Below the pieces are notes generated by a model. It was not told where the DNA came from, did not search any database, and saw nothing but the letters and a program-made list of their open reading frames with translations. From Crateriforma conspicua (GTDB lineage Bacteria > Planctomycetota > Planctomycetia > Pirellulales > Pirellulaceae): DNA of 64,000 bases. The position numbers and the translations under genes are program-made. This document shows positions 1 through 63,336 of this stretch, piece after piece. Where the stretch lies: the NCBI RefSeq assembly GCF_007752935.1, contig NZ_CP036319.1, positions 1,302,001-1,366,000 on the forward strand, in the 5' to 3' direction. How positions within the stretch are numbered: position 1 is the stretch's first letter; each line of letters starts with the position of its first letter.

Positions 1-426
1 GACGGCCAGCACACGTCCGTCGGGAGCAACATCGCGGGCCATCGGCAAGGTCCAAAAACCGTTGCCGCAACCCAGGTCGCACACCACCATGCCGGGTCGC
101 AATTGAAGTTGGTCGAATCCTTCGCGGACGCTTTCTTCTTCTTCACGTTCGGGACGGATCAGCCAAGACGCACCACGATGGGACATCGGCTGGGCGACGA
201 TGCGATCCAAATAAACCCGGCGGGCGGATTCCTTGGGCGGGGCATCGGACGTATCGGATGCGGATGGTGATTCAGACAACAGTGCGTCTTGTGCGACGCA
301 CAAATGGGTGGACGCCGGCATCAGGGATGCGGTGAACAGCCACGCGGTGACCAAGAGAATGCGCGGCCGGCTATTCTTCCGAGGATGCCAATTCGAAGAC
401 CGGCTGGAACGCTTCGTCAAAGTCAT
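1..426 (-). CDS. Exported class I SAM-dependent methyltransferase, N-terminal part (cut by window edge)
   Basis: Only the N-terminal ~142 codons lie inside the window; the gene runs off position 1. Translation shows a basic start (MTLTKR), a hydrophobic stretch (ILLVTAWLFTASL) and a likely signal-peptidase site near CVAQ. A linker with a run of acidic residues follows, then the SAM-binding motif I VCDLGCGNGFW. Motif I is the hallmark of class I methyltransferases; the substrate cannot be told. An ATG at 435 is also in frame; I prefer the ATG at 426, which gives a better signal peptide. The start overlaps the end of the Minf_1886 gene (371-781) by 56 bp, so the two are probably co-transcribed. 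A signal peptide on a SAM enzyme is odd because SAM is cytoplasmic. Confidence 0.72.
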   Translation of the reverse strand, partial: MTLTKRSSRSSNWHPRKNSRPRILLVTAWLFTASLMPASTHLCVAQDALLSESPSASDTSDAPPKESARRVYLDRIVAQPMSHRGASWLIRPEREEEESVREGFDQLQLRPGMVVCDLGCGNGFWTLPMARDVAPDGRVLAV

Positions 427-48979: not shown

Positions 48980-50461
48980 CTATTTCGCGGCGTCCAATTC
49001 AAAGCCGGTCAGCTTGAAACTGTACGCGCAATCACAGGGCAGATCGTCAGCGGCGATTGCCGGCATCTGGATGGTCAGCTGACCTTGGTCGTCCACTTCG
49101 TAAGCCAGCGTGCCGTCATGGCCCAGCAGTTGTACCGTGGCTTGGTCATCCGCCGATTGGACACGGACCGATTGCAGCTGGATCGCGGATTTGGGCCACC
49201 CCAGCGTGATCGCATAAACGGTGGTGCCGTCTTTGCTTTGTGTATACCGGACGTCGGCGGCGGAATATTCAAGCTTCAAAAATTCGCCGTGTTTCTTGAA
49301 TCCGCCTTCGGGTTCCACCGTCGGCCCTTCGCCGTAAGCCTTCCAAGGGCGCGTCGCATAGATGGCTTCGCCGTTGACGTTCATCCATTCGCCCAGTTCG
49401 GCCAACACCTGGCGTTGGTCGTCGGGGATCCGGCCGTTGGCCATCGGTGAAATGTTCAACAGGACGATTCCATTTTTGGCCACCGTGTCGACCAGAGCAT
49501 GAACCACCTTGTGCGTGGGTTTGATTTTCAGTGAATCGGTATAACACCAACTGCCCGTGCTGATCGTGTCGTCGGTCATCCAAACCTTTTCCGCCGCGCG
49601 TGGTTCACGAGACTTTTCGTGGTCCAGCACGCTCATGTCCAACGGCAAATCCTCCTGTTTGCGAACGATCACCACGTCGCGATCCCACTTCTTTGCCGCG
49701 TTCAAATAATAGGCGGCGAACTCCTGGCGATAGGACTCGGGGATCCGGTCCAGCCAACTGTCAAACCAAATGATGTCGGGTTGATATTGGTCGATCACTT
49801 CGGCCAATTTGTCCAACCACATTTGATGGAACTGCTCCGCCGGCATTTGGGCGTACAAGATCGCGGTTTCCTCGTTCTCATTGGCCGATGGATAGTCTTT
49901 GACCATTCCCTCAAAGTGGCCATAGAAATTCCGAGCGTGATGGAACGTGGCGATGGTTTTCATGCCTTCGGCACGGATCGCTTCGGTCAATTCACCCAAT
50001 AGATCGCGTTTGGGGCCTTTGTCCACCGAGTTCCAGGGCGTCGCCTGGCTGTCCCACAGCGAAAACCCATCGTGGTGTTCGGCCACCGGTCCGGCAAAAC
50101 GGGCCCCCGTGGCTTTGAACAGCTTGGCCCATTCGGTGGCATCAAATTCAGGCGTTTGCCACTGGTCGACAAAGCGGTGATAGCCGTATTTTCCCGGATC
50201 GCCGTAAACATCCACGTGATGTTTGTTGACTTGGTGTCCTTTCAAAAACATGTTCCGCGGATACCACTCACTGCCATAGGCCGGAACCGCGTACACGCCC
50301 CAGTGGAAATAGATTCCTAGCTTGGAATCCTTGAACCACTCCGGGGCCTCATCGTGCGCGGCCAACGATTGCCAGTCGGGCTTGAAATCTTGGCCTGACA
50401 GTCGGTTGGAAATGCTTGCCGCAGCGGCAAACGCCATCAAAGCGATTGCAAAGTGTCTCAT
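48980..50461 (-). CDS. Exported GH29 alpha-L-fucosidase
   Basis: 493 residues. The signal peptide is FAIALMAFAAAASISNRLSG. The GH29 TIM barrel follows: WFKDSKLGIYFHWGVYAVPA, EWYPRNMF, FDATEWAKLFKATGARFAG, AEHHDGFSLW and nucleophile Asp234 in IIWFDSWLDR. Later LLNISPMANGRIP and ITLGWPKSAI mark the C-terminal beta domain. It releases alpha-L-fucose from glycans, for example fucoidan or algal glycoproteins, in the periplasm or outside. The upstream 95 bp contain an AT-rich stretch with CGTTAACG. Confidence 0.93.
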   Translation of the reverse strand: MRHFAIALMAFAAAASISNRLSGQDFKPDWQSLAAHDEAPEWFKDSKLGIYFHWGVYAVPAYGSEWYPRNMFLKGHQVNKHHVDVYGDPGKYGYHRFVDQWQTPEFDATEWAKLFKATGARFAGPVAEHHDGFSLWDSQATPWNSVDKGPKRDLLGELTEAIRAEGMKTIATFHHARNFYGHFEGMVKDYPSANENEETAILYAQMPAEQFHQMWLDKLAEVIDQYQPDIIWFDSWLDRIPESYRQEFAAYYLNAAKKWDRDVVIVRKQEDLPLDMSVLDHEKSREPRAAEKVWMTDDTISTGSWCYTDSLKIKPTHKVVHALVDTVAKNGIVLLNISPMANGRIPDDQRQVLAELGEWMNVNGEAIYATRPWKAYGEGPTVEPEGGFKKHGEFLKLEYSAADVRYTQSKDGTTVYAITLGWPKSAIQLQSVRVQSADDQATVQLLGHDGTLAYEVDDQGQLTIQMPAIAADDLPCDCAYSFKLTGFELDAAK

Positions 50462-50500
50462 GGGTTATTTCGCTGAATAGAAGGTTAAAAAATAGTATAC

Positions 50501-50508
50501 CGTTAACG
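50501..50508. promoter_or_regulatory. Palindromic GTTAAC site upstream of fucosidase
   Basis: CGTTAACG at 50501-50508 lies 40 bp upstream of the fucosidase start and next to GTATAC (50495-50500). A GTTAAC palindrome also occurs upstream of the GH16 gene at 6652-6661. A shared regulator is only a guess. Confidence 0.3.
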
Positions 50509-50556
50509 TTCCCGCGGTGACGCCAAGTTAAACGATGGGATCGCCGCGCCACTTGA

Positions 50557-51417
50557 TCATGGTTGGATGGGTTCCAATCGGAATCCATGAACCCAGTCGT
50601 AATAGGTCGCGTTCTTCGTGTCGTCGCTTAGTTCTTCAGGTGTCGGTGGTGTTTCCCAGTTGTACGTCTCGGTGACCATGTTCAACTGCATCGGGTCGGT
50701 GAACGGTTCGCTGACGATCGACGTGTCCGGGTGAAGTGTGAATTGAAATTCATTATTGTGATAAAAGTGTGCCGTGTTGGCATCGACCCACCAGACGCCG
50801 TAGGTATGGAATTCGTCGGCGGCTGATACCTTGAATTCGCTTTGTCCGGGCTGAGACTTCGAATACTTTTTGCCGTTCTCGCGAATCCAAACGTGCGTGT
50901 TTGAAAACATGCCGAACGGTCGATTCGGATGCTTCTTAGGACCACCGATGGTTTCTTGGACATCCAATTCTTGCGCGATCCAGCGATCTTCGACTTTGCG
51001 TCCACGATTGGAAAACCAAAACGTGGATGACATCGACACTTTCGAAGCTTTCATGCGTACTTCGTAGTATCCGAAGTGTGCTTGATTGCTTTTGGAGCAA
51101 ACGGCGCCGCCGGCGATGGTGTATGGCCCATCTGGCTGGTCCAGCACACTGTTTCGAATCCGCAATTTGCCGTCGACGATCGATACCGCCGAAGGCATGA
51201 ATTTTGCCGGGGATCGTCCTTTCCACGTCGGATGGTGGTCGTACCACTTGTCAGCGTCCAAATGGTCCCCGTCGAATTCGTCGGTGAACCTTGGATCGGG
51301 AACCCATCGATAGCCTTCCGGTGGTGTTGGTGGTTCCGCATTAGCGATTGTTTGGAAAGCAAAAAGAAACGTCAGAGCGAAAAACAGGAATCGTTTTGGA
51401 ATGGTAAGCAGTGTCAT
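50557..51417 (-). CDS. Exported GH16 glycoside hydrolase (carrageenase/agarase-like)
   Basis: 286 residues from the ATG at 51417; the frame is open to 51600 but without similarity. Signal peptide PKRFLFFALTFLFAFQTIANA. A single GH16 domain carries the catalytic signature ELDVQETIGG with Glu150, Asp152 and Glu155. Other strands are GYYEVRMKASKVSMSSTFWF, FHTYGVWWVDANTAHFYHN and YYDWVHGFRL. With a TFWFSNRG approach loop it looks closer to kappa-carrageenase or agarase than to laminarinase. Paralogous to 6732-7640 (similar length, different catalytic context). It lies 95 bp upstream of, and on the same strand as, the fucosidase gene. Confidence 0.85.
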   Translation of the reverse strand: MTLLTIPKRFLFFALTFLFAFQTIANAEPPTPPEGYRWVPDPRFTDEFDGDHLDADKWYDHHPTWKGRSPAKFMPSAVSIVDGKLRIRNSVLDQPDGPYTIAGGAVCSKSNQAHFGYYEVRMKASKVSMSSTFWFSNRGRKVEDRWIAQELDVQETIGGPKKHPNRPFGMFSNTHVWIRENGKKYSKSQPGQSEFKVSAADEFHTYGVWWVDANTAHFYHNNEFQFTLHPDTSIVSEPFTDPMQLNMVTETYNWETPPTPEELSDDTKNATYYDWVHGFRLEPIQP

Positions 51418-51596
51418 TGCAGACTGGGGTGGGAATGGGACATGCGGGAAAGGTAGATGCGTTGAATGAAACGCCCTCAGATGGGGGCGGAAACCTTTGT
51501 TTGGCTTCCGCAGAAAAGCGGGCATGGATGCCGGTGGATCCGATGCACGCCCGCAAGGGAAGCGAAGCAAAATCAAAGTCGCTTGAAAACGTTCGA

Positions 51597-54125
51597 TCAA
51601 TCGTTGTCGGTTGAATGCAAACTCAAGGTCGATGCATCAAGCCCTTCCGAGGTGGCAGTGATCTTGATGTCGCCGGCGACGTCGGCTTTGGATCGCACGA
51701 TCAGCATGCACAGACCGTTGAACGCGTACCGCTGATCCGCTTGGAACGGTTCGGTTGACGCAGGATTTCCGTTGCCGACCGCTGCGATTTCCGCAGGTCC
51801 GTCAATGCTGAACTTCACCAAGTTGTCGGCCCGCGGACAGAAATTGCCTTCGCCGTCTTGGATCTGCACCGTGACAAAAGACAGGTCCATTCCATCGGCG
51901 GCGATTTCGGAGCGATCGGCCGAAAGCTGGATCTGTTTCGGGGCGGACGCGGTGACGAACCTTTTGCGACTGACAGGTTTTTCGTCGACATACCCGACGA
52001 CCTCGATGGACCCTGGTTGATAGGGAACCACCCACTGCAGCCGATACTTCGAATCATAAGTCTGTTCGGGGACCACCTTTGCCGACATCGGCAACGTGAC
52101 GGGGGCACTGAAGCGAGCTTTGCGTCCCTGTGATTCGCCGTTGACGATCAACTCGACTTCGTCGCAATTGGTATAGCAGACCACGGGCGTGTCTTCGCCG
52201 ATCCGTTCGGGCCAGGTCCAGTGCGGCAGGACATGAACCATCGGGGTGTCGGTCCATTGGCTTTGGTACAGATAGAATCGGTCCTTGGGAAATCCGCAAA
52301 GGTCAACGATTCCGAAAAACGAGCTGCGTACTGGCCAATCGCCGTTCCAATAGCCGTTGGTTGAATTGTCACGACCACCGTACGGGGTCGGTTCACCCAA
52401 GTAATCAAAGCCGGTCCAAACGAATTCGCCCAGAATGTTCGGGTTCTCTTCCAGCGACTGGAACTCAAAGTCCGGCGGGTACGCCCAGACCGGACCGATG
52501 AAGTCATAACTGGTGACTTGTTTGGACGGGTGAGTGTCGTATTTCACTAGGGGGAAATGGTACTCGCCACGTGTGCTGACACAGCTGCTGGTTTCCGATC
52601 CACACATGATCCAATCGGGATGGTTCTCGGTGACTTCCTGGTATCGCATGGGCTTGTAATTCCAGCCCACGATATCGACTTCGGCGGCCAAACCGTTCAC
52701 CTCCGCGCCGGGATAGTAGTTGAAGCCGGCTGCGACCGGTCGCGTCGCGTCTTGGTCATGGCAAATTTCAGTCAGGCGTCGGGCTTGTTTCCAGCCGTCT
52801 TTTCGCCCTTGCTCCAGGATCTCGTTACCGATGCTCCACATGATCACGCTGGGATGGTTGCGGTCACGAAGGATCATGTCGCGCAAGTCACGCTCGGACC
52901 ACTCGTCGAAGAATTTGTTGTAACCATTTTCAACTTTGGCGATTTGCCACACGTCAAACGATTCGTCCATCACGACCAAACCCAACTCGTCACAGCATTC
53001 CAGTTGCTCGGGCGACGGCGGGTTGTGGCTGGTTCGGATCGCGTTGACGCCCATCGATTTCATGATTTCTAACTGACGCATCGTGGCGCGTCGGTTAACG
53101 GCCGCACCGAGTGGTCCAAGGTCGTGGTGCAGACAGACGCCTTTGAATTTGACCGGTTGACCGTTCAGGACGAATCCGTTTTCAACGCTGAAATCGATGG
53201 TGCGGATCCCGAATCGCGTCACATAGCGGTCCAGGACTTCCCCGTCGGCCGAAACGATCTTGCTGACCGCGTGATAAAGGTTCGGTTGACTGATGTCCCA
53301 CAGCTTGGGCTGATCCACGTTCAATTCGGTTGAAACAGTGACCGCCTTTTCTGGTTTCCCCTCGATCGGCTGCGTGGACTGGGCGATGGATTGGCCGGAC
53401 GCATCCAGGACGGTCGTTTGCAATTCTCCGGTGCAATTGTTCGCGTCGGCGCAGCGTATGCTTGTTTCGATCGCAATAACCGCCTGTTCCGCGGTGACCG
53501 TCGGTGTCGTGATCGACGTGCCCCAGTGATCGACATGCATCGGTGACTTGCGATCCAACCAAACGTTCCGATAGATGCCCGCACCGGGATACCAGCGTGA
53601 CGACAGGTCTTCCGGGGCAAGGCGAACGGCGATGACGTTGGCTTCGTCACCAAAATTCAGATGTTCGGTCAGGTCACAGACAAAACCCATGTAGCCGAAC
53701 GGTCGTTGACCGACCTTGTGGCCGTTCAGCCAGACTTCCGCGTTGTACATCGCACCGTCGAATTCGACGCTGACTTGTTTACCGCGGTCGGTTGCCGGCA
53801 ACGTGAACGACTTGCGATACCACCCGATGCCGTGGAACGGCAGGCCGCCACAGCGGGCGTTGTATTGAATGTCAAACGGGCCTTCGATCGCCCAATCGTG
53901 TGGCAGACGCAACGGACGCCAGGACGCATCATCGTATTGGGCGTTCTGTGCGTGTTCGGCGGCGCCGCGGTGGAAACGCCAATCGTTGTTGAAGCTTTCG
54001 CGTCCCATGCGTTGAAGGTTTTCGGCCGAAGCGACCGACCCCATCAAAATCACACATGCGCACACCAGCAGTGGCAGTCGCGATCGTGGGCAAACACGAA
54101 ATTGAAATCCGGTCGATCGTCGCAT
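51597..54125 (-). CDS. Exported GH2 beta-galactosidase with C-terminal Ig-like domains
   Basis: 842 residues from the ATG at 54125. Signal peptide RLPLLVCACVILMGSVASA. Sugar-binding jelly roll (FNNDWRFHRGAAEH, LPHDWAIEGPF, GWYRKSFTLPA), Ig-like domain and TIM barrel with acid/base Glu435 in WSIGNEILEQG and nucleophile Glu511 in CGSETSSC. Beyond it come DUF4982-like and Ig-like domains (VELIVNGESQGRK, YQPGSIEVVGYVDEKPVS, IAADGMDLSFVTVQIQDGEG). This long form is typical of polysaccharide-utilisation loci. It ends 179 bp upstream of the GH16 gene and may be co-expressed with it and the fucosidase. Confidence 0.9.
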   Translation of the reverse strand: MRRSTGFQFRVCPRSRLPLLVCACVILMGSVASAENLQRMGRESFNNDWRFHRGAAEHAQNAQYDDASWRPLRLPHDWAIEGPFDIQYNARCGGLPFHGIGWYRKSFTLPATDRGKQVSVEFDGAMYNAEVWLNGHKVGQRPFGYMGFVCDLTEHLNFGDEANVIAVRLAPEDLSSRWYPGAGIYRNVWLDRKSPMHVDHWGTSITTPTVTAEQAVIAIETSIRCADANNCTGELQTTVLDASGQSIAQSTQPIEGKPEKAVTVSTELNVDQPKLWDISQPNLYHAVSKIVSADGEVLDRYVTRFGIRTIDFSVENGFVLNGQPVKFKGVCLHHDLGPLGAAVNRRATMRQLEIMKSMGVNAIRTSHNPPSPEQLECCDELGLVVMDESFDVWQIAKVENGYNKFFDEWSERDLRDMILRDRNHPSVIMWSIGNEILEQGRKDGWKQARRLTEICHDQDATRPVAAGFNYYPGAEVNGLAAEVDIVGWNYKPMRYQEVTENHPDWIMCGSETSSCVSTRGEYHFPLVKYDTHPSKQVTSYDFIGPVWAYPPDFEFQSLEENPNILGEFVWTGFDYLGEPTPYGGRDNSTNGYWNGDWPVRSSFFGIVDLCGFPKDRFYLYQSQWTDTPMVHVLPHWTWPERIGEDTPVVCYTNCDEVELIVNGESQGRKARFSAPVTLPMSAKVVPEQTYDSKYRLQWVVPYQPGSIEVVGYVDEKPVSRKRFVTASAPKQIQLSADRSEIAADGMDLSFVTVQIQDGEGNFCPRADNLVKFSIDGPAEIAAVGNGNPASTEPFQADQRYAFNGLCMLIVRSKADVAGDIKITATSEGLDASTLSLHSTDND

Positions 54126-54290
54126 CGTCGGCGAATCCTTCGGGTGGGCAAAAGATTGGGGGGAAGGCCAGACGATGCGAATCTTCAAGACGTTCGACAA
54201 CGACGGCGGCGGGGCAGACCCGTATCATCGTCGAAGTGTTAACAATTTGGAAGCGTCGGAACAGACTGTCGCAGGTCCCCGGACGGAGAC

Positions 54291-55274
54291 TTATTGATTC
54301 GACGGAACGTCACGGAATCGCTGGTGACAGACACGGCAATCGTGTGAGATTTTTTCGATTCTGCGGAGACTCATTTTGGCGGCGGACCGATTCTGTGACG
54401 CCCGCGCCACCGATTGCCGGAGCGCTTTCGAATTCGCGATTGATCGTTGTAATTGTTCGACAAAGTCATCGCCGAGCGATTCTTGCCGGGCAATGCGATC
54501 GGCTTCGACAAAGGCTTCCATCAACAGCAATGCTTGGTGATCTTTGTCGAGGTCAGGATGGTTGGCGGGCGGTTCCCAGGCATTCGCGGCGATTCGACGC
54601 AGGTGCGACAAGCGTGTTTCCAGGTCCACCATCAGTTGGGCCATCGCGGGCACATCAGCAATGCTGGGAAAGGCGACACCGCTTTGATTCAACGCGGCGT
54701 CGGACAGAGGTTGGGCGTCGGCGACGGAGGCAAACAGCCCGCGATACTGTGGGCCCGTTCCGGCGATGCGAAGTGTCTGGTCGGCTTGGTTTTCATTGAT
54801 CAAACCGGCGCCCAAGCAGGCCACCGCGGCGGCGGCGGGGCTGCGATGCTTGCCGTGATGGCAATGAATAAAGATGGGGCCCGGCAATTGGTTGACCGCT
54901 TGGGCCAATTCCAGTGAACGTTCCGCAGGAATACCGTCATAGCCGTGAGGCAGATGGACGTAGCGCAATCCTTGTCGTTCGGCGGCATCGACATCGGGCA
55001 ACGCGGCATCCACGCTGATCACTGTGCGAATGCCCAATGCGGCCAATTCCGCGAACGCGTCGTCGTTATCGGGCAACCCACCAGAAAACACCCGGTCGTG
55101 CAATTGCACCAAGTTGGGAACATGACGGGTGGGCATCTTTTGTGGATGCGGGACCGACGCGTTTTTCTCAGGCTGGTCGGCAACACTGTGTGTTGTCAGG
55201 ATGTCGCCAAAGAAGATGGACAGCATCACAGCAGCGATTGCCGCCTTGATTGTTTGCCCCCAAAACATGCCCAT
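54291..55274 (-). CDS. Exported dual-specificity-phosphatase-like protein with C-terminal cytochrome c motif
   Basis: 327 residues. Signal peptide IKAAIAAVMLSIFFGDIL. The first half is a protein tyrosine/dual-specificity phosphatase fold: VFSGGLPDNDDAFAELAALG, IRTVISVDAALP, LRYVHLPHGYDGIP and the P-loop HCHHGKHRS with Cys138 and Arg144 (CX5R). The second half is a helical region (LETRLSHLRRIAANAW, KALRQSVARASQNRSAAKMS) ending in a heme-binding motif CRVCH (Cys313, Cys316, His317) 10 residues from the C-terminus, the arrangement of a cytochrome c'. Such a fusion is rare. Both active sites look intact. Function unknown: perhaps a redox-linked periplasmic phosphatase. Confidence 0.75.
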   Translation of the reverse strand: MGMFWGQTIKAAIAAVMLSIFFGDILTTHSVADQPEKNASVPHPQKMPTRHVPNLVQLHDRVFSGGLPDNDDAFAELAALGIRTVISVDAALPDVDAAERQGLRYVHLPHGYDGIPAERSLELAQAVNQLPGPIFIHCHHGKHRSPAAAAVACLGAGLINENQADQTLRIAGTGPQYRGLFASVADAQPLSDAALNQSGVAFPSIADVPAMAQLMVDLETRLSHLRRIAANAWEPPANHPDLDKDHQALLLMEAFVEADRIARQESLGDDFVEQLQRSIANSKALRQSVARASQNRSAAKMSLRRIEKISHDCRVCHQRFRDVPSNQ

Positions 55275-55379: not shown

Positions 55380-56264
55380 TTAGAAGGTTTCAGGATAGAC
55401 GACCAATTCAATCCGACGATTGGCCGCACGACCGGCGGGGGTGTCATTGGATTGCCGTGGATTGTTGGCACCTTGAGCCACGGTGAACAATTGGTGGATC
55501 GGCATTCCTGCACGGCGGACCATGAAGTCCAGTACGGCACCCGACTGTGCGGCACTCAATTGATGGCTGGTCGCGACATCGCCGCCATAGACTGGCGAAT
55601 TGTCGGTGTAACCTTCCACGGCGATGCGTTGTCGGGGAAACACGGTGCGCAGCTGTGCGGCAACGGGATCCAAGATTCCGGCCGCTTGCGGGATCATCTG
55701 GTTGGTTCCCGCGCGAAATAACTGATCTGCGGGCAAGATGATGCGAACCACATCGCCGTCGGGCTGGACGGCCAAGTTGGGAAGGTTCAGCCGCGATGCT
55801 TGCGCGGACAAATTGGTGTTCGGCCGAATGGTCGCGCCGCCACGCATTTGAGTGGACGCTTGAAAACTGCGGACCTGGTTTTCCGCCTGGTTCGCAGCCA
55901 TTCGTGCGGATTCAAACTGGTTGGTGACCTCGGCAAGCTGTGTGCGTACCAATCGCAGTTCGTCCTTATAGACCTGAGCCTGCTGTTCGCTTTGGGCCAA
56001 CTGCGTGGTCAGCTGGCGATTGTTATCGTCCAGCAACTGAACGCGTCGGCTGAGTTCGGCGATCTGGGCCTGCGTGGGATTGTTGGCCACCGCGACGGGT
56101 TGCCCCTGCCATGCGGCACCGCCGGGGGTGGCCAAATATGGATTTTGTGTACAGCCGGACACGACCGCCGCAATCAGCCAGACGGACAACAGCAGCGCAG
56201 CACGCACGCGACCAGGCGAATCCTGGGTGCGGCGTCGGGCGTTCATGGCAATGGGCGTTGGCAT
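55380..56264 (-). CDS. OmpA-family lipoprotein with coiled coil
   Basis: 294 residues; the ATG at 56246 (MNARRRTQ) is an equally good start. Lipoprotein signal LLLSVWLIAAVVSGC with Cys as acylation site. A central coiled coil (about residues 65-125, AQIAELSRRVQLLDDNNRQL) precedes the OmpA C-terminal peptidoglycan-binding domain: VEGYTDNSPV, SAAQSGAVLDFMVRRAGM and GRAANRRIELVV, with the Asp and Arg residues that contact diaminopimelate. It probably anchors the outer membrane to peptidoglycan. Adjacent genes suggest no specific partner. Confidence 0.85.
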   Translation of the reverse strand: MPTPIAMNARRRTQDSPGRVRAALLLSVWLIAAVVSGCTQNPYLATPGGAAWQGQPVAVANNPTQAQIAELSRRVQLLDDNNRQLTTQLAQSEQQAQVYKDELRLVRTQLAEVTNQFESARMAANQAENQVRSFQASTQMRGGATIRPNTNLSAQASRLNLPNLAVQPDGDVVRIILPADQLFRAGTNQMIPQAAGILDPVAAQLRTVFPRQRIAVEGYTDNSPVYGGDVATSHQLSAAQSGAVLDFMVRRAGMPIHQLFTVAQGANNPRQSNDTPAGRAANRRIELVVYPETF

Positions 56265-58949: not shown

Positions 58950-60446
58950 TCAGGCCAGAATGTCTTTCACCACATGACCGTGGACATTGGTCAGGCGTCG
59001 TTCCAGCCCATTGTGGTAATACGTCAAACGCTCGTGATTCAGTCCCATCAGGTGAAGCAGTGTGGCGTTGAAATCGTATACGGTCGTTTCATTGCTGGCG
59101 GTCTTGAATCCGAATTCATCGCTTTCGCCATAGCTGAATCCCTTTTTCACACCGGCCCCGGCCAAGAAGCAGGTGAAGGCGTCGGGGTTGTGGTCACGCC
59201 CCGTCCCGTTGGCTTGCAAGAACGGCATCCGTCCGAACTCCGTGCACCAGACCACCAGCGTGTGTTCCAACATGCCCCGTTGTTTCAAGTCGGCGATCAA
59301 AGCAGCGGTCGGCTGGTCCATGATTTCCGCTTGCATCGCATGCGTTTTCAAGATGTCCGAATGCGAATCCCAGTTGGTGATCCCATTGCCGCCGGCCGGG
59401 TCGCTGCCATTGAACAACTGGACCACACGAACGCCACGTTCCAACAGACGGCGTGCCAGGATGCAGTTGTTGGCGTAAGCACGTTTCAGTTCGGTGCCGG
59501 TTTCGGTTCCATAAGCATCGTGGACGTGTTTGGGTTCGCCGGCGATATCCATCACTTCGGGGACGGATGTCTGCATACGGCCGGCCAATTCATAGCTGGC
59601 AATTCGCGCGGCCAAGTCTGCATCGCCCGGAAAGCTCTCCAGGTGATCGGCGTTCAGTTTGCGTAGCAGATCCACGCCCGCTTGATCGGCCCCCGGTGTA
59701 AACCGGTCGGGACGGTGCAAGTTGGCCGGCGGGTTGGATGCGGTGAAATCGGTGCCCTGGAAAGCCGCCGGCAGAAATCCACTGCCGAAATTGTTCTTGC
59801 CACTTCGCGCAAGCCCACGCGGGTCGTTGATGGCCACGAACGCGGGCAGTTCTTCCGTTTCACAGCCCAACGCATAAGTCACCCAAGCGCCGAACGACGG
59901 AAAACCTTCCATCGTAAAACCGGTGTTGAAAAAGTTTTCGCCTTGTGGGTGCGCGCTGGTTTGGGTCGTCAGCGAATGGACGAAACAAAAGTCGTCCACC
60001 ATTTCGGCCAAGTTGGGCAATAGATCCGAAACCATCTTTCCGGTTTCACCGCGAGGACGAAAGTCCCAAAACGGCTTGGCGATATTGCCCGTTGGGCCTT
60101 CGAAGGTGACCGCGGGGATCCCTGGTGGTTTTTGACCGTCCAGGTCGTACAAGGCTGACTTGTAATCGAAGGTGTCGACATGGCTGACCGCACCCGGCAA
60201 ATAAATCACCAGGACTTGTTTGGCCGGCATTTCAAAGTGCGGTGGCCGTGACGCGTACGGATTCTTATCGTCGATCTGGGGACGAATCGGCCCCAAGCCA
60301 TCGGCGGCATCGCTGGCCAAAAGGTTGTCACGGGCCAGCAACTGTGAAAGTGCCAAACCACCCAGGGACATGCCGGTCTGGCCCAAAAACGATCGACGGT
60401 TCAAAAGCGAACGTCCGATTGGACTGATGCGTTCAGGCAAGTTCAT
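58950..60446 (-). CDS. DUF1501 family Tat-exported protein
   Basis: 498 residues from the ATG at 60446. Tat leader LLNRRSFLGQTGMSLGGLA. The DUF1501 core is KQVLVIYLPGAVSHVDTFDY, LADLAEMVDDFCFVHSLTTQ-like segment (VHSLTTQTSAHPQGENFF), GFPSFGAWVTYALG and the sulfatase-like end LVVWCTEFGRMPFLQANGTG, GRDHNPDAF. The family is abundant in planctomycetes and always paired with a DUF1549/DUF1553 protein, as here (upstream gene ends 82 bp away). Function is unknown; alkaline-phosphatase-like fold with metal-binding Asp/His residues. Confidence 0.93.
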   Translation of the reverse strand: MNLPERISPIGRSLLNRRSFLGQTGMSLGGLALSQLLARDNLLASDAADGLGPIRPQIDDKNPYASRPPHFEMPAKQVLVIYLPGAVSHVDTFDYKSALYDLDGQKPPGIPAVTFEGPTGNIAKPFWDFRPRGETGKMVSDLLPNLAEMVDDFCFVHSLTTQTSAHPQGENFFNTGFTMEGFPSFGAWVTYALGCETEELPAFVAINDPRGLARSGKNNFGSGFLPAAFQGTDFTASNPPANLHRPDRFTPGADQAGVDLLRKLNADHLESFPGDADLAARIASYELAGRMQTSVPEVMDIAGEPKHVHDAYGTETGTELKRAYANNCILARRLLERGVRVVQLFNGSDPAGGNGITNWDSHSDILKTHAMQAEIMDQPTAALIADLKQRGMLEHTLVVWCTEFGRMPFLQANGTGRDHNPDAFTCFLAGAGVKKGFSYGESDEFGFKTASNETTVYDFNATLLHLMGLNHERLTYYHNGLERRLTNVHGHVVKDILA

Positions 60447-60527
60447 CGATTGCAATCTTCGGTTAAAAATTCAAGGTCATCACGGCCAACCCCATCGGTT
60501 ACCCGCCGTTGCGCGACCCGCGGGCGG

Positions 60528-63275
60528 TTAAGGCAGGAACGCGAATTCATTGGTGTTGAACAAGACACGGCAAAGCAGCGCCAAATCATGTTGCCGGACC
60601 AGTTCGATCGATGATTGCAATTCGCTTTCATCGGCGTCCCGGCAAAACAGCAGTTGATAGCAGCGTTGGACTTGCGATTCGGTATCGTTGCCCGCTTCGC
60701 GGCGCACCCGTTCGGCCATCGCTTCGGATTGCGTGACCACGAACTGGCTGTTCATCAAATTCAACGCCTGCAGCGGTGTGGTGCTGACCGGGCGTTTGGC
60801 ACGAATCTGACCACAGTCGGGAAAGTCAAATGCCGTAAAGATGCGATCGTCGACACGACGCATCCGTTCTTGATACAGCATTCGCCGCCAAGTCGGATCG
60901 CTGTAATTGTCAACGACTTCCCACTGGGCATAGCGTGCTTTGATGTTGTGAATGCGATAGCTGGGACCGCCAACGGTGTCGTTCAGGTTACCGGCGGCCA
61001 ACAAGATTGAATCACGAATCACTTCCGCCTCCACGCGACGTGGCGGAAAACGCCACAGCAGTTGCGCCGACGCATCGACACGCATTCCGTCGTCGTTGGG
61101 CAAGGATGATTGACGAAAGGCATCCGACATCACGATCGAGCGGATCGTCGACTTCATCGACCAACCCGATTCGATGAACTGTTCCGCCATCCAGTCCAGC
61201 ATTTCCGGATGCGTCGGCGGTGCACCGGCTTTGCCAAAATCGCTGGGCGTGGGAACGATTCCGTTGCCGTACAGATGATGCCACAAACGGTTCACCATCA
61301 CTCGCGCGGTCAACGGGTTTTCTGGTCGCGTCAGCCAGCGTGCAAATGCAAGGCGGCGCTCGGGGCCCGATGCGTCCGGCGCGATGTCCAATTGACCGTT
61401 CAGCTTTTCGGGCGCGGCCGGTTCAACTTTTTCACGAGGGTTTTCCGGGCTACCACGCGAAAACACGAAGGTGTCGACCGGTTCGATCATCTTGCCCAAG
61501 AACGCCATTTGGGGCCCCTGGGTGGATAACTGTTCGATGGCCTGCTGGATGGTGTCGACCAATGCACTGCGATTGGAATCGTCTTCGGTGCGTTTGCGCA
61601 TCATCGACGTCTTGGCAAACGTTTTCCAATTCCCGTTGGCGTCGCGAAACTGAATCGCAAAGTCGCCGTGCATGTTCTTGTTCTGCTTGTCCAGGTAATC
61701 CGTTTCAAAGAAGTCTTCGCGGTTGGTACTAATTCGAATCTGATCGATCGTCGTGTCTTGGGCGAAGGTGTAGTGCAGCCATGGGCGTTCCTTTTGTCCG
61801 CTGGGACTCTTCCCGCGCCAGACTTGCGTACCAAAAACGCCATCGGCCAAGGCTTCGGGATCTTTGCCTTCGATATGAGTGGCCGGATTGTCCGTCACGA
61901 CGGTGCCATAGTGCGCTTTGGCGACGTTTCGTGACGAATCACCCGCTTCGAAAATTTCTAGTTCGTCGGCTTGGACCCAACCCTTTTCGAATTGGATCCG
62001 CATTTCACGAACCGTTTGTGGTGGGAAATGAATTTCTTCGAAGCCCGACCAATCTTCCACCCACGCCCAACCTTGACGCCGCATTTGTGATCGAATCGCC
62101 TCGATGTCGGCGGTCAATTCGTCGTGGCGGATGACGCGTGGGTGTTCGGGGGAAAGTTCGGGAAAGCGGCTGCCGAATTCGATGTCTTGAAAGACCGCTG
62201 ACAAGCGGTAGTAGTCCTGGATCGAAATCGGATCGAACTTGTGATTGTGGCATCGGGCACATCCGACGGTCACCCCCATCACCGAAGCCCCAACGGTTTG
62301 CAGGATTTCGTCCATTCGGTCGGCTCGAGCTTGACGAATCGCCGTCGGTTCCTGGCCAACGGTTGCCGCCGGAACGTGGGGGCCGGCGACCAGATAGCCG
62401 GTCGCGTCACCGTGTCCCAATACATCACCGGCGATTTGTTCGGTGATGAATTGGTCATAGGGTTTGTCTTGGTTGAACGCGTCGACGACATAGTCGCGGT
62501 ACATCCACGCGTTCTTGCGATACAGGTTGCTTTCGCTGCCGTTGGTTTCCGCCCAGCGAATCACGTCCAGCCAGTGTTGTGCCCACCGTTCGCCGAAGTG
62601 GGGCGAATCCAACAATTGTTCGACCAAGTTTTCATAGGCCGCGTCGGCATCTTTGGCGTAAGCATCGACGAAGGCTTGTGATTGCTGGGGCGTCGGCGGC
62701 AAACCCGTCAACGCGATGCTGACGCGACGGATCAATTGTCGCGGCGGAGCTTCGGCGCTGAATGCCAGTCCGGCTTCATCCAGTTTGGCCTTCAGGAATC
62801 CGTCGATCGTGTCGTGGTCGAATTCCTTTTTCAAAGGCATGAATGCCCAGTGATCGATCGTTTCATCGACCACGTCGTCCATCTGGCCGGGCCACTGCGC
62901 ACCTTGTTGAATCCAACGCCGCAGCAAGTCGATCTTTTCGTCCGACAGTTTGTCATCGTCGGGCGGCATCTCCATGCCAGGTTCCGCATGCGTGACCACC
63001 GTCATCAGATAACTGCCATCCGGATCACCGGGAACGACCGCGGGTTGCCCATAGTCGCCGCCACGCAACATCATCGCCCGACGATCCAGACGCAGCCCGG
63101 ATTCCTGTTCGTCTTCGCCGTGACAGTACTGGCAATGGTCTTCTAGGATCGGCAGGATGTCGCGTTCAAAGTCGACAGGGTCGTCGCTGTGGGCCAACGG
63201 ACCGCCGGCCCATGCGGCAATCGCAAGACCTGCGGTGACCATCATGAGCCGCATTGTCGGGAATCGGAAAATCAT
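60528..63275 (-). CDS. DUF1549/DUF1553 protein with planctomycete cytochrome c motif (PSCyt1)
   Basis: 915 residues from the ATG at 63275. Signal peptide RLMMVTAGLAIAAWAGG. Near the mature N-terminus is the PSCyt1 heme motif CQYCHGEDE. DUF1549 follows (WAFMPLKKEFDHD, DGFLKAKLDEAGLAFS, PPRQLIRRVSIALTGLPPTP, FGERWAQHWLDVIRW), a carbohydrate-binding-like middle part (WLHYTFAQDTTIDQIRISTN) and DUF1553 at the end (RLAFARWLTRPENPLTARVM, NRLWHHLYGNGIVPTPSDFG). It sits upstream of its DUF1501 partner. The pair may handle sulfated polysaccharide or redox reactions, not proven. Confidence 0.93.
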   Translation of the reverse strand: MIFRFPTMRLMMVTAGLAIAAWAGGPLAHSDDPVDFERDILPILEDHCQYCHGEDEQESGLRLDRRAMMLRGGDYGQPAVVPGDPDGSYLMTVVTHAEPGMEMPPDDDKLSDEKIDLLRRWIQQGAQWPGQMDDVVDETIDHWAFMPLKKEFDHDTIDGFLKAKLDEAGLAFSAEAPPRQLIRRVSIALTGLPPTPQQSQAFVDAYAKDADAAYENLVEQLLDSPHFGERWAQHWLDVIRWAETNGSESNLYRKNAWMYRDYVVDAFNQDKPYDQFITEQIAGDVLGHGDATGYLVAGPHVPAATVGQEPTAIRQARADRMDEILQTVGASVMGVTVGCARCHNHKFDPISIQDYYRLSAVFQDIEFGSRFPELSPEHPRVIRHDELTADIEAIRSQMRRQGWAWVEDWSGFEEIHFPPQTVREMRIQFEKGWVQADELEIFEAGDSSRNVAKAHYGTVVTDNPATHIEGKDPEALADGVFGTQVWRGKSPSGQKERPWLHYTFAQDTTIDQIRISTNREDFFETDYLDKQNKNMHGDFAIQFRDANGNWKTFAKTSMMRKRTEDDSNRSALVDTIQQAIEQLSTQGPQMAFLGKMIEPVDTFVFSRGSPENPREKVEPAAPEKLNGQLDIAPDASGPERRLAFARWLTRPENPLTARVMVNRLWHHLYGNGIVPTPSDFGKAGAPPTHPEMLDWMAEQFIESGWSMKSTIRSIVMSDAFRQSSLPNDDGMRVDASAQLLWRFPPRRVEAEVIRDSILLAAGNLNDTVGGPSYRIHNIKARYAQWEVVDNYSDPTWRRMLYQERMRRVDDRIFTAFDFPDCGQIRAKRPVSTTPLQALNLMNSQFVVTQSEAMAERVRREAGNDTESQVQRCYQLLFCRDADESELQSSIELVRQHDLALLCRVLFNTNEFAFLP

Positions 63276-63336
63276 TCGTCGATCGATCAGGCGTGGGGGA
63301 ATTGGCAACGGGATTCAATTTTAGACGGCCGCAATG

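Follow-up and report, generated by a model that had tools for sequence, protein, structure and literature searches.

The gene and its product

The window analyzed here is a 64,000-nucleotide stretch of Crateriforma conspicua DNA (contig NZ_CP036319.1). It contains a minus-strand gene whose product joins a phosphatase fold of the dual-specificity (DSP) type to a putative class II c-type cytochrome. The features assigned at this locus, with the evidence for each in parentheses, are as follows.

54291..55274, minus strand: whole gene for an exported DSP-phosphatase-fold/class II cytochrome c fusion, 327 aa (open reading frame and homologs)
55179..55274, minus strand: N-terminal export signal, residues 1-32 (hydrophobic helix 7-22 and SVA/D site)
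54675..55136, minus strand: DSP/TpbA-like phosphatase-fold domain, residues 47-200 (TpbA profile E 5.5e-9; model Z 16.1 to TpbA and 16.3 to DUSP23)
54936..54938, minus strand: Asp113, candidate general acid (aligned with TpbA Asp105; Asp in 95/134 frames)
54843..54866, minus strand: P-loop HCHHGKHR, residues 137-144, with nucleophile Cys138 and Arg144 (conservation in 134 frames)
54309..54668, minus strand: four-helix class II c-type cytochrome domain, residues 203-322 (PDB profile, AF2, and cb562 matches)
54630..54632, minus strand: Met215, candidate distal heme ligand at the b562 Met7 position (conservation and structural register)
54324..54338, minus strand: heme c attachment site CRVCH, residues 313-317 (conservation in 134 frames)
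54312..54314, minus strand: Arg321, at His+4 as in class II cytochromes (133/134; HMMER alignments to cytochromes c' and b562)
55380..56264, minus strand: OmpA-family gene upstream of the fusion gene (PF00691, E 1.2e-14)

The fusion gene is a single open reading frame that runs from an ATG at 55274 to 54291 with 0 internal stops, and frame 1 of the plus strand over 54291-55274 is interrupted by stops. The original prediction, which named no strand, had placed HCHHGKHRS (Cys138, Arg144) and CRVCH (Cys313, Cys316, His317) in one exported protein of 327 residues, and both motifs fall at exactly those residues of this uninterrupted frame. A hydrophobic helix at residues 7-22 is followed by SVA/D, which by eye reads as a putative signal peptidase cleavage site, and the product is probably a single, soluble protein. 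A promoter and terminator scan at the gene gave no information.

Searched as a single sequence, the window protein matched no curated family at its cut-off; the Pfam search gave 14.2 bits against PF01322 (cytochrome c'; cut-off 26.5), and phosphatase families reached at most 18.6 bits, below their curated cut-offs. Because these single-sequence scores are all subthreshold, the case for both domains is carried by conservation and profile searches. Such scores are also what could be cited for a chance motif or an assembly or frameshift artifact, an explanation to which we attach next to no credence. The sister species carries the same open reading frame at 90% identity, and dN/dS values for the sister-species pair are 0.029/0.350 in the phosphatase half and 0.044/0.139 in the heme half (ratios of about 0.08 over residues 46-200 and 0.32 over residues 201-322). 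With dN well below dS in each half, both halves are constrained by purifying selection, which together with the shared frame argues against a sequencing frameshift. The same single frame moreover recurs in many sampled Planctomycetota genomes (see below), and homologs, site conservation, and purifying selection together rule the artifact out. We regard the anatomy alone, an exported two-domain fusion and putative hemoprotein, as close to certain. The computations show the fusion, both folds, the conservation of both active sites, and a single clade with a split-gene sister lineage.

Distribution of the fusion

Among 60 related genomes, 28 contained a match to the fusion protein, and in 25 the match extended across both halves. 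A near-exact-peptide scan of one genome from each of 84,980 species returned 20 fusion protein loci, all from planctomycetes (including Phycisphaerales), Verrucomicrobia, or a Lentisphaeraceae bacterium, although a scan that needs near-exact peptides leaves room for other phyla. A profile search of 294 sampled Planctomycetota genomes found some match in 203, phosphatase-only paralogs included, and both halves in one frame in 115, by a hand count of the listed profile rows reaching profile position 303 or beyond. Frames in two further genomes (G346 and G173) were verified to reach the heme motif. The fusion family is thus common but patchy, and the pairing of domains first read from one genome extends to other planctomycetes. 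Plasmid records held two planctomycete matches, annotated "hypothetical protein" and "dual specificity protein phosphatase," so the cytochrome half goes unnamed there; a search of phage records for the fusion protein gave no matches.

Residue conservation was scored over 134 distinct sequences out of 174 full-length frames, two copies of L001 (L055 and L121) having been excluded beforehand. This set was selected by C-terminal coverage, and the 25 frames left out were examined separately. At E<=1e-20, 45 of 50 loci were kept; the other five (L002 and L027-L030) are phosphatase only. Alignment A2 comprises 43 of the 45 loci, with P0001 representing L001 and with L047 (a duplicate) and L050 (truncated) omitted; A3 comprises 37 of the 45, and A1 and A4 (20 and 16 sequences) draw on the window and related loci only.

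The phosphatase-fold half

A profile of 43 members matched TpbA (E 5.5e-9) and a DUF442 structure (1.1e-6), as well as VHR, PRL, and PFA-DSP1. The AF2 model of the fusion protein (pLDDT 90.0, pTM 0.81) is tied between DUSP23 (Z 16.3, rmsd 2.7 over 140 residues) and TpbA (Z 16.1, rmsd 3.1 over 155 residues). The fold and the H-C-X5-R P-loop of this half are those of the PTP/DSP superfamily. The Pfam families "polymorphic toxin DSP" and "Swiss Army Knife" were matched with a best E of about 1e-6 among the 43 members, the window protein falling below cut-off; we rejected both identities, as the matches reflect the shared fold and a toxin context was not seen.

Several known phosphatases share the fold but differ in architecture. 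The inositol-pyrophosphate phosphatases PFA-DSP1 and Siw14 (Z 14-15), which presumably also have the GKHR P-loop in common with the fusion protein, are eukaryotic and without a heme domain. TpbA, described in the excerpts of PMC4409338 as a periplasmic phosphatase, is a DSP of Pseudomonas aeruginosa that shares with the fusion protein its export, the DSP fold, an HC-x-H-G P-loop, and the Asp-to-Cys distance; however, it is without a heme domain, is about 23% identical, and has the P-loop HCKHGNNR (PMC4409338, in part) in place of HCHHGKHR.

Across the 134 frames, the P-loop residues His137, Cys138, His140, Gly141, His143, and Arg144 are invariant, as are His107, Pro109, and Tyr112, and Asp89 is kept in 133. 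Lys142 occurs in 101 frames, with Arg in 17, and His139 in 117. At position 139, directly following the catalytic Cys, His is replaced by Phe in 15 frames and by Tyr in 2, always together with Gly145. The general-acid Asp at position 113, aligned with TpbA Asp105 (whose role is discussed in the portion of PMC4409338 consulted), is present in 95 frames and missing from 39; the window protein has it. Position 145, which follows the P-loop Arg, is Gly in 87 frames, Ser in 45, and Ala in 2, so that about two thirds of members (89/134) have no Ser or Thr there, whereas the window protein retains Ser145. PRL phosphatases (PTP4A), which share the PTP fold, likewise have no Ser/Thr after the Arg and form a long-lived phosphocysteine (excerpts of PMC10040874), but they carry Ala at that position, are eukaryotic, and have no heme, whereas the fusion family mostly carries Gly. 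The Gly/Ser distribution suggests that phosphatase activity may be slow in many members, or that they may perform other thiolate chemistry. With the general acid also gone from 39 frames, turnover may be poor, and judging by these residues phosphatase activity cannot be assumed for the family.

Sulfur chemistry as an alternative

These substitutions would also suit a redox enzyme that is not a phosphatase, in which Cys138 attacks or binds sulfur or another oxyanion (for example, thiosulfate or persulfide) and the fused heme receives the electrons. A DUF442 domain of PTP fold has proven sulfur transferase (rhodanese) activity (PMC5823870, in part), and the Blh sulfur transferase model is weakly matched by 41 of the 43 members, so the alternative is a real one. 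TIGR01244 is matched by 22 of the 43, the DUF442 structure 3gxg matches the phosphatase half, and an electron-accepting domain is attached. What the fusion has in common with the DUF442/TIGR01244/Blh sulfur transferases is nevertheless the PTP fold together with weak profile similarity. The rhodanese-type signature is a CX4R loop, and the DUF442 paralog in the same genome has this spacing (HCKSGKRAG), whereas the fusion loop is CX5R, as in phosphatases, in 134/134 frames. The window protein scores 18.9 bits against the TIGR01244 cut-off of 85.85, and on score and loop spacing we rejected TIGR01244/DUF442 membership. There is also no recurrent sulfur gene nearby, and on balance we think this chemistry unlikely for the family.

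That paralog (L002:1492-1974, contig C1 of the same genome, at about 1.866 Mb; PF04273, 57.6 bits) adjoins an open reading frame in which we read persulfide dioxygenase and rhodanese-like sequence, and the two genes are likely a sulfide oxidation pair.

The heme half

A profile of 37 C-terminal halves matched cytochrome c' (E 3.1e-5), cytochrome b562 (6.8e-5), and c-556 (0.0047) in the PDB. Modeled alone with AF2, the domain folds into four helices (pLDDT 94.2). Foldseek returned no match with E below 0.001 for the domain alone, and the class II assignment thus depends on the sequence profiles and on VIA-align rows, in which residues 7..119 align with 1..106 of engineered cytochrome cb562 at a Z of about 12-13, a range that is ambiguous or weak for helical bundles. 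The four-helix bundle, shared with cytochromes c', c-556, and b562, the C-terminal CXXCH, and the Arg at His+4 are those of class II cytochromes, and a Met stands at the b562 ligand position. The matched class II cytochromes and b562 are single-domain proteins, whereas here the domain forms the second half of a protein with a phosphatase fold. The Kusta0087/0088 complex of the anammox planctomycete Kuenenia also has a class II-type fold (Z 12.8 to the heme half), but it is a stand-alone heterodimer without a phosphatase domain. Although 26 of the 43 members match PF01322 at E<=0.01 (best, 3.6e-8), the window protein misses its gathering score; the C-terminal domain is class II-like and not a PF01322 member.

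The heme site is nearly as well kept as the P-loop cysteine and arginine: Cys313 and Cys316 are present in 134/134 frames and His317, hence the full CXXCH, in 133/134, and Met215 (the remaining frame having a gap) and Arg321 are each present in 133/134. The one heme motif exception is L050, where much of the protein is missing and the motif reads CLACR. Covalent attachment of heme to CRVCH is feasible, since ResB/CcsA-type genes for cytochrome c assembly are present in the genome (PF05140 and PF01578, above cut-off).

Assuming a gap-free helix 1, the ends of the VIA-align range place His317 on His102 and Met215 on Met7, the two heme ligands of b562. The HMMER alignment to b562 starts three residues after this register, so that the placement of Met215 is likely rather than proven. 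That the Met at this position is nearly invariant points to a six-coordinate His/Met redox heme and away from a gas-binding cytochrome c'. The original prediction is supported as to a DSP-type domain and a class II cytochrome domain in one exported protein, and less so as to gas sensing of the cytochrome c' type. Its suggestion of gas sensing would have a five-coordinate heme, as in true cytochrome c', through which NO or CO switches the phosphatase; the class II fold, the Arg at His+4, and the rank of cytochrome c' as the best profile match agree with such a sensor, and six-coordinate hemes can also bind NO upon Met dissociation. Met215, in 133 of the 134 frames and in the b562 Met7 register, predicts a six-coordinate heme instead, and we judge a gas switch improbable.

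Elsewhere in the same genome (L122:1498-2451, contig C1, at about 5.05 Mb), an exported-looking protein with a long N-terminal part ends in a class II cytochrome-like domain (CANCH); by eye, its gene adjoins a GspF-like secretion gene.

Split genes and phosphatase-only paralogs

CXXCH is absent from 22 of the 25 incomplete frames, which are phosphatase-only paralogs; their loops are CX5R ending in DR[TC]G (17 frames), CX5R reading HCHGGNHRAG (one), or CX4R reading HCKSGKRAG (four). Another, L139, is cut at a contig end with CKSCH still present. Of four further short matches, L205 and L206 carry CTACH, and L204 and L207 reach a contig end, as computed from coordinates. The remaining two of the 25 frames, extended as L208 and L209 in genomes G154 and G142, have the two halves encoded by adjacent genes.

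L208:1458-2554: split phosphatase and class II-like cytochrome genes (adjacent genes)
L209 (whole): split phosphatase and class II-like cytochrome genes (adjacent genes)

In both, directly after the phosphatase gene comes a second gene, whose small product looks by eye like a lipoprotein at its start and has CVECH or CVDCH at its C terminus. Profile A3 matched these second genes with E 8.3e-8 and 5.1e-5 in a small search set. PF01322 detected the first, below cut-off, and the second was left unnamed by NCBIfam and Pfam searches. The L209 phosphatase frame apparently also contains a second, degenerate phosphatase-like stretch.

As a control, a class II cytochrome was found by profile and motif within about 3 kb of 0/20 phosphatase-only paralogs. 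The C-x-x-G-x-H-R loop appears to go with the heme domain, and we counted this as evidence of coupling. The exception is L217, whose HCHGGNHRAG loop resembles the heme-linked type with no cytochrome neighbor, so that such a loop does not by itself require heme. In a FastTree phylogeny of 157 phosphatase halves, all 133 fused tips grouped together (support, 0.773), and the split-gene phosphatases L208 and L209 were sister to the fused forms in a clade of 135 tips (support, 0.952). The tree omitted L050, L139, and L140/L141, the latter two being represented by L208/L209. The simplest history consistent with this topology would be two neighboring genes that were fused once.

These patterns bear on whether the halves work together at all. 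The heme domain could be a partner-docking or structural appendage with the halves independent, or the phosphatase half could be a pseudophosphatase that serves as a binding protein; the absence, as in PRLs, of a Ser/Thr next to the Arg in 89/134 members would fit, since PRLs act as pseudophosphatases (excerpts of PMC10040874). However, almost all members retain the heme attachment site, the axial ligands, and the P-loop Cys and Arg jointly, and the two partners remain adjacent where they are separate genes, which leaves us doubtful of this account.

Gene neighborhood

The OmpA-family gene lies on the same strand, upstream of the fusion gene across a 105-nt gap, and is possibly cotranscribed with it; the arrangement is conserved in the sister species only. 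No neighbor recurred across the 51 of 60 loci that could be anchored, where gene calls were crude (longest open reading frames); the largest nonanchor clusters spanned 7 of the 60 loci and were scattered. A Pfam scan of 33 of the 43 operon-like neighbors found no family in more than two, and neither the 51 anchored loci nor these 33 neighbors yielded a recurring sulfur gene. As no neighbor recurs, none points to a phospholipid, a sugar phosphate, or another substrate, and we dropped the neighborhood as a guide to substrate; the fusion protein apparently works on its own.

A likely polysaccharide use locus, retained in the sister species, lies directly downstream (window 48980-54200, minus strand), where alpha-L-fucosidase, GH16, and GH2 genes overlap or are closely spaced. 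The window also carries a DUF1501 gene and a PSCyt1/DUF1549/DUF1553 gene (58950-63308, minus strand), a pair typical of planctomycetes; the latter has a CXXCH heme motif of its own.

A proposed heme-gated envelope enzyme

Our tentative reading, which we hold with less than even confidence, is that the fusion protein is an envelope phosphatase-like thiol enzyme gated by the redox state of its heme. The TpbA-like DSP fold would bind a phosphate-like oxyanion in the His-rich CX5R loop, with Cys138 as nucleophile. Heme would be attached at Cys313 and Cys316 and ligated by His317 and, most likely, Met215, and would serve as the redox element, its ferric or ferrous state being set by an envelope electron transfer chain or an oxidant. 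Either the Cys138 thiolate or the packing of the domains could relay that state to the phosphatase half and so switch a slow phosphatase, whose substrate would be a phosphorylated component of the envelope. In this scheme, the loading of heme, its ligation by Met, catalysis, and redox gating are all predicted steps. Evolutionary coupling of the two halves is supported by the retention of both sites together, the adjacency of the split pairs, and the 0/20 control. Of the two kinds of signaling originally proposed, redox linkage is reasonable, given that the pairing of an exported DSP with a class II cytochrome recurs in planctomycetes; gas sensing is less likely on account of Met215.

The PTP/DSP fold might instead work as an oxidoreductase and not as a phosphatase, its CX5R pocket binding an oxyanion or thiol, Cys138 forming an adduct, and electrons flowing to the His/Met heme c. 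We rate this specific scheme as rather unlikely; were it true, the family would represent a nonphosphatase envelope enzyme of planctomycetes and their relatives.

Each domain is known, and as far as the open-access literature searched reaches, the union of a phosphatase fold with a covalent heme appears to be undescribed: the search did not find it, and the fusion is not described in the portions consulted of PMC10040874, PMC5823870, PMC4409338, and PMC8567305. The fusion nonetheless occurs across many Planctomycetota, as a single clade that keeps its heme and thiolate residues nearly throughout. Envelope signaling in planctomycetes is poorly known, and the fusion may bear on how redox state relates to phosphate chemistry outside the cytoplasm. 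If its halves communicate, it would directly connect electron transfer in the envelope with phosphate (or sulfur) chemistry at the molecular level.
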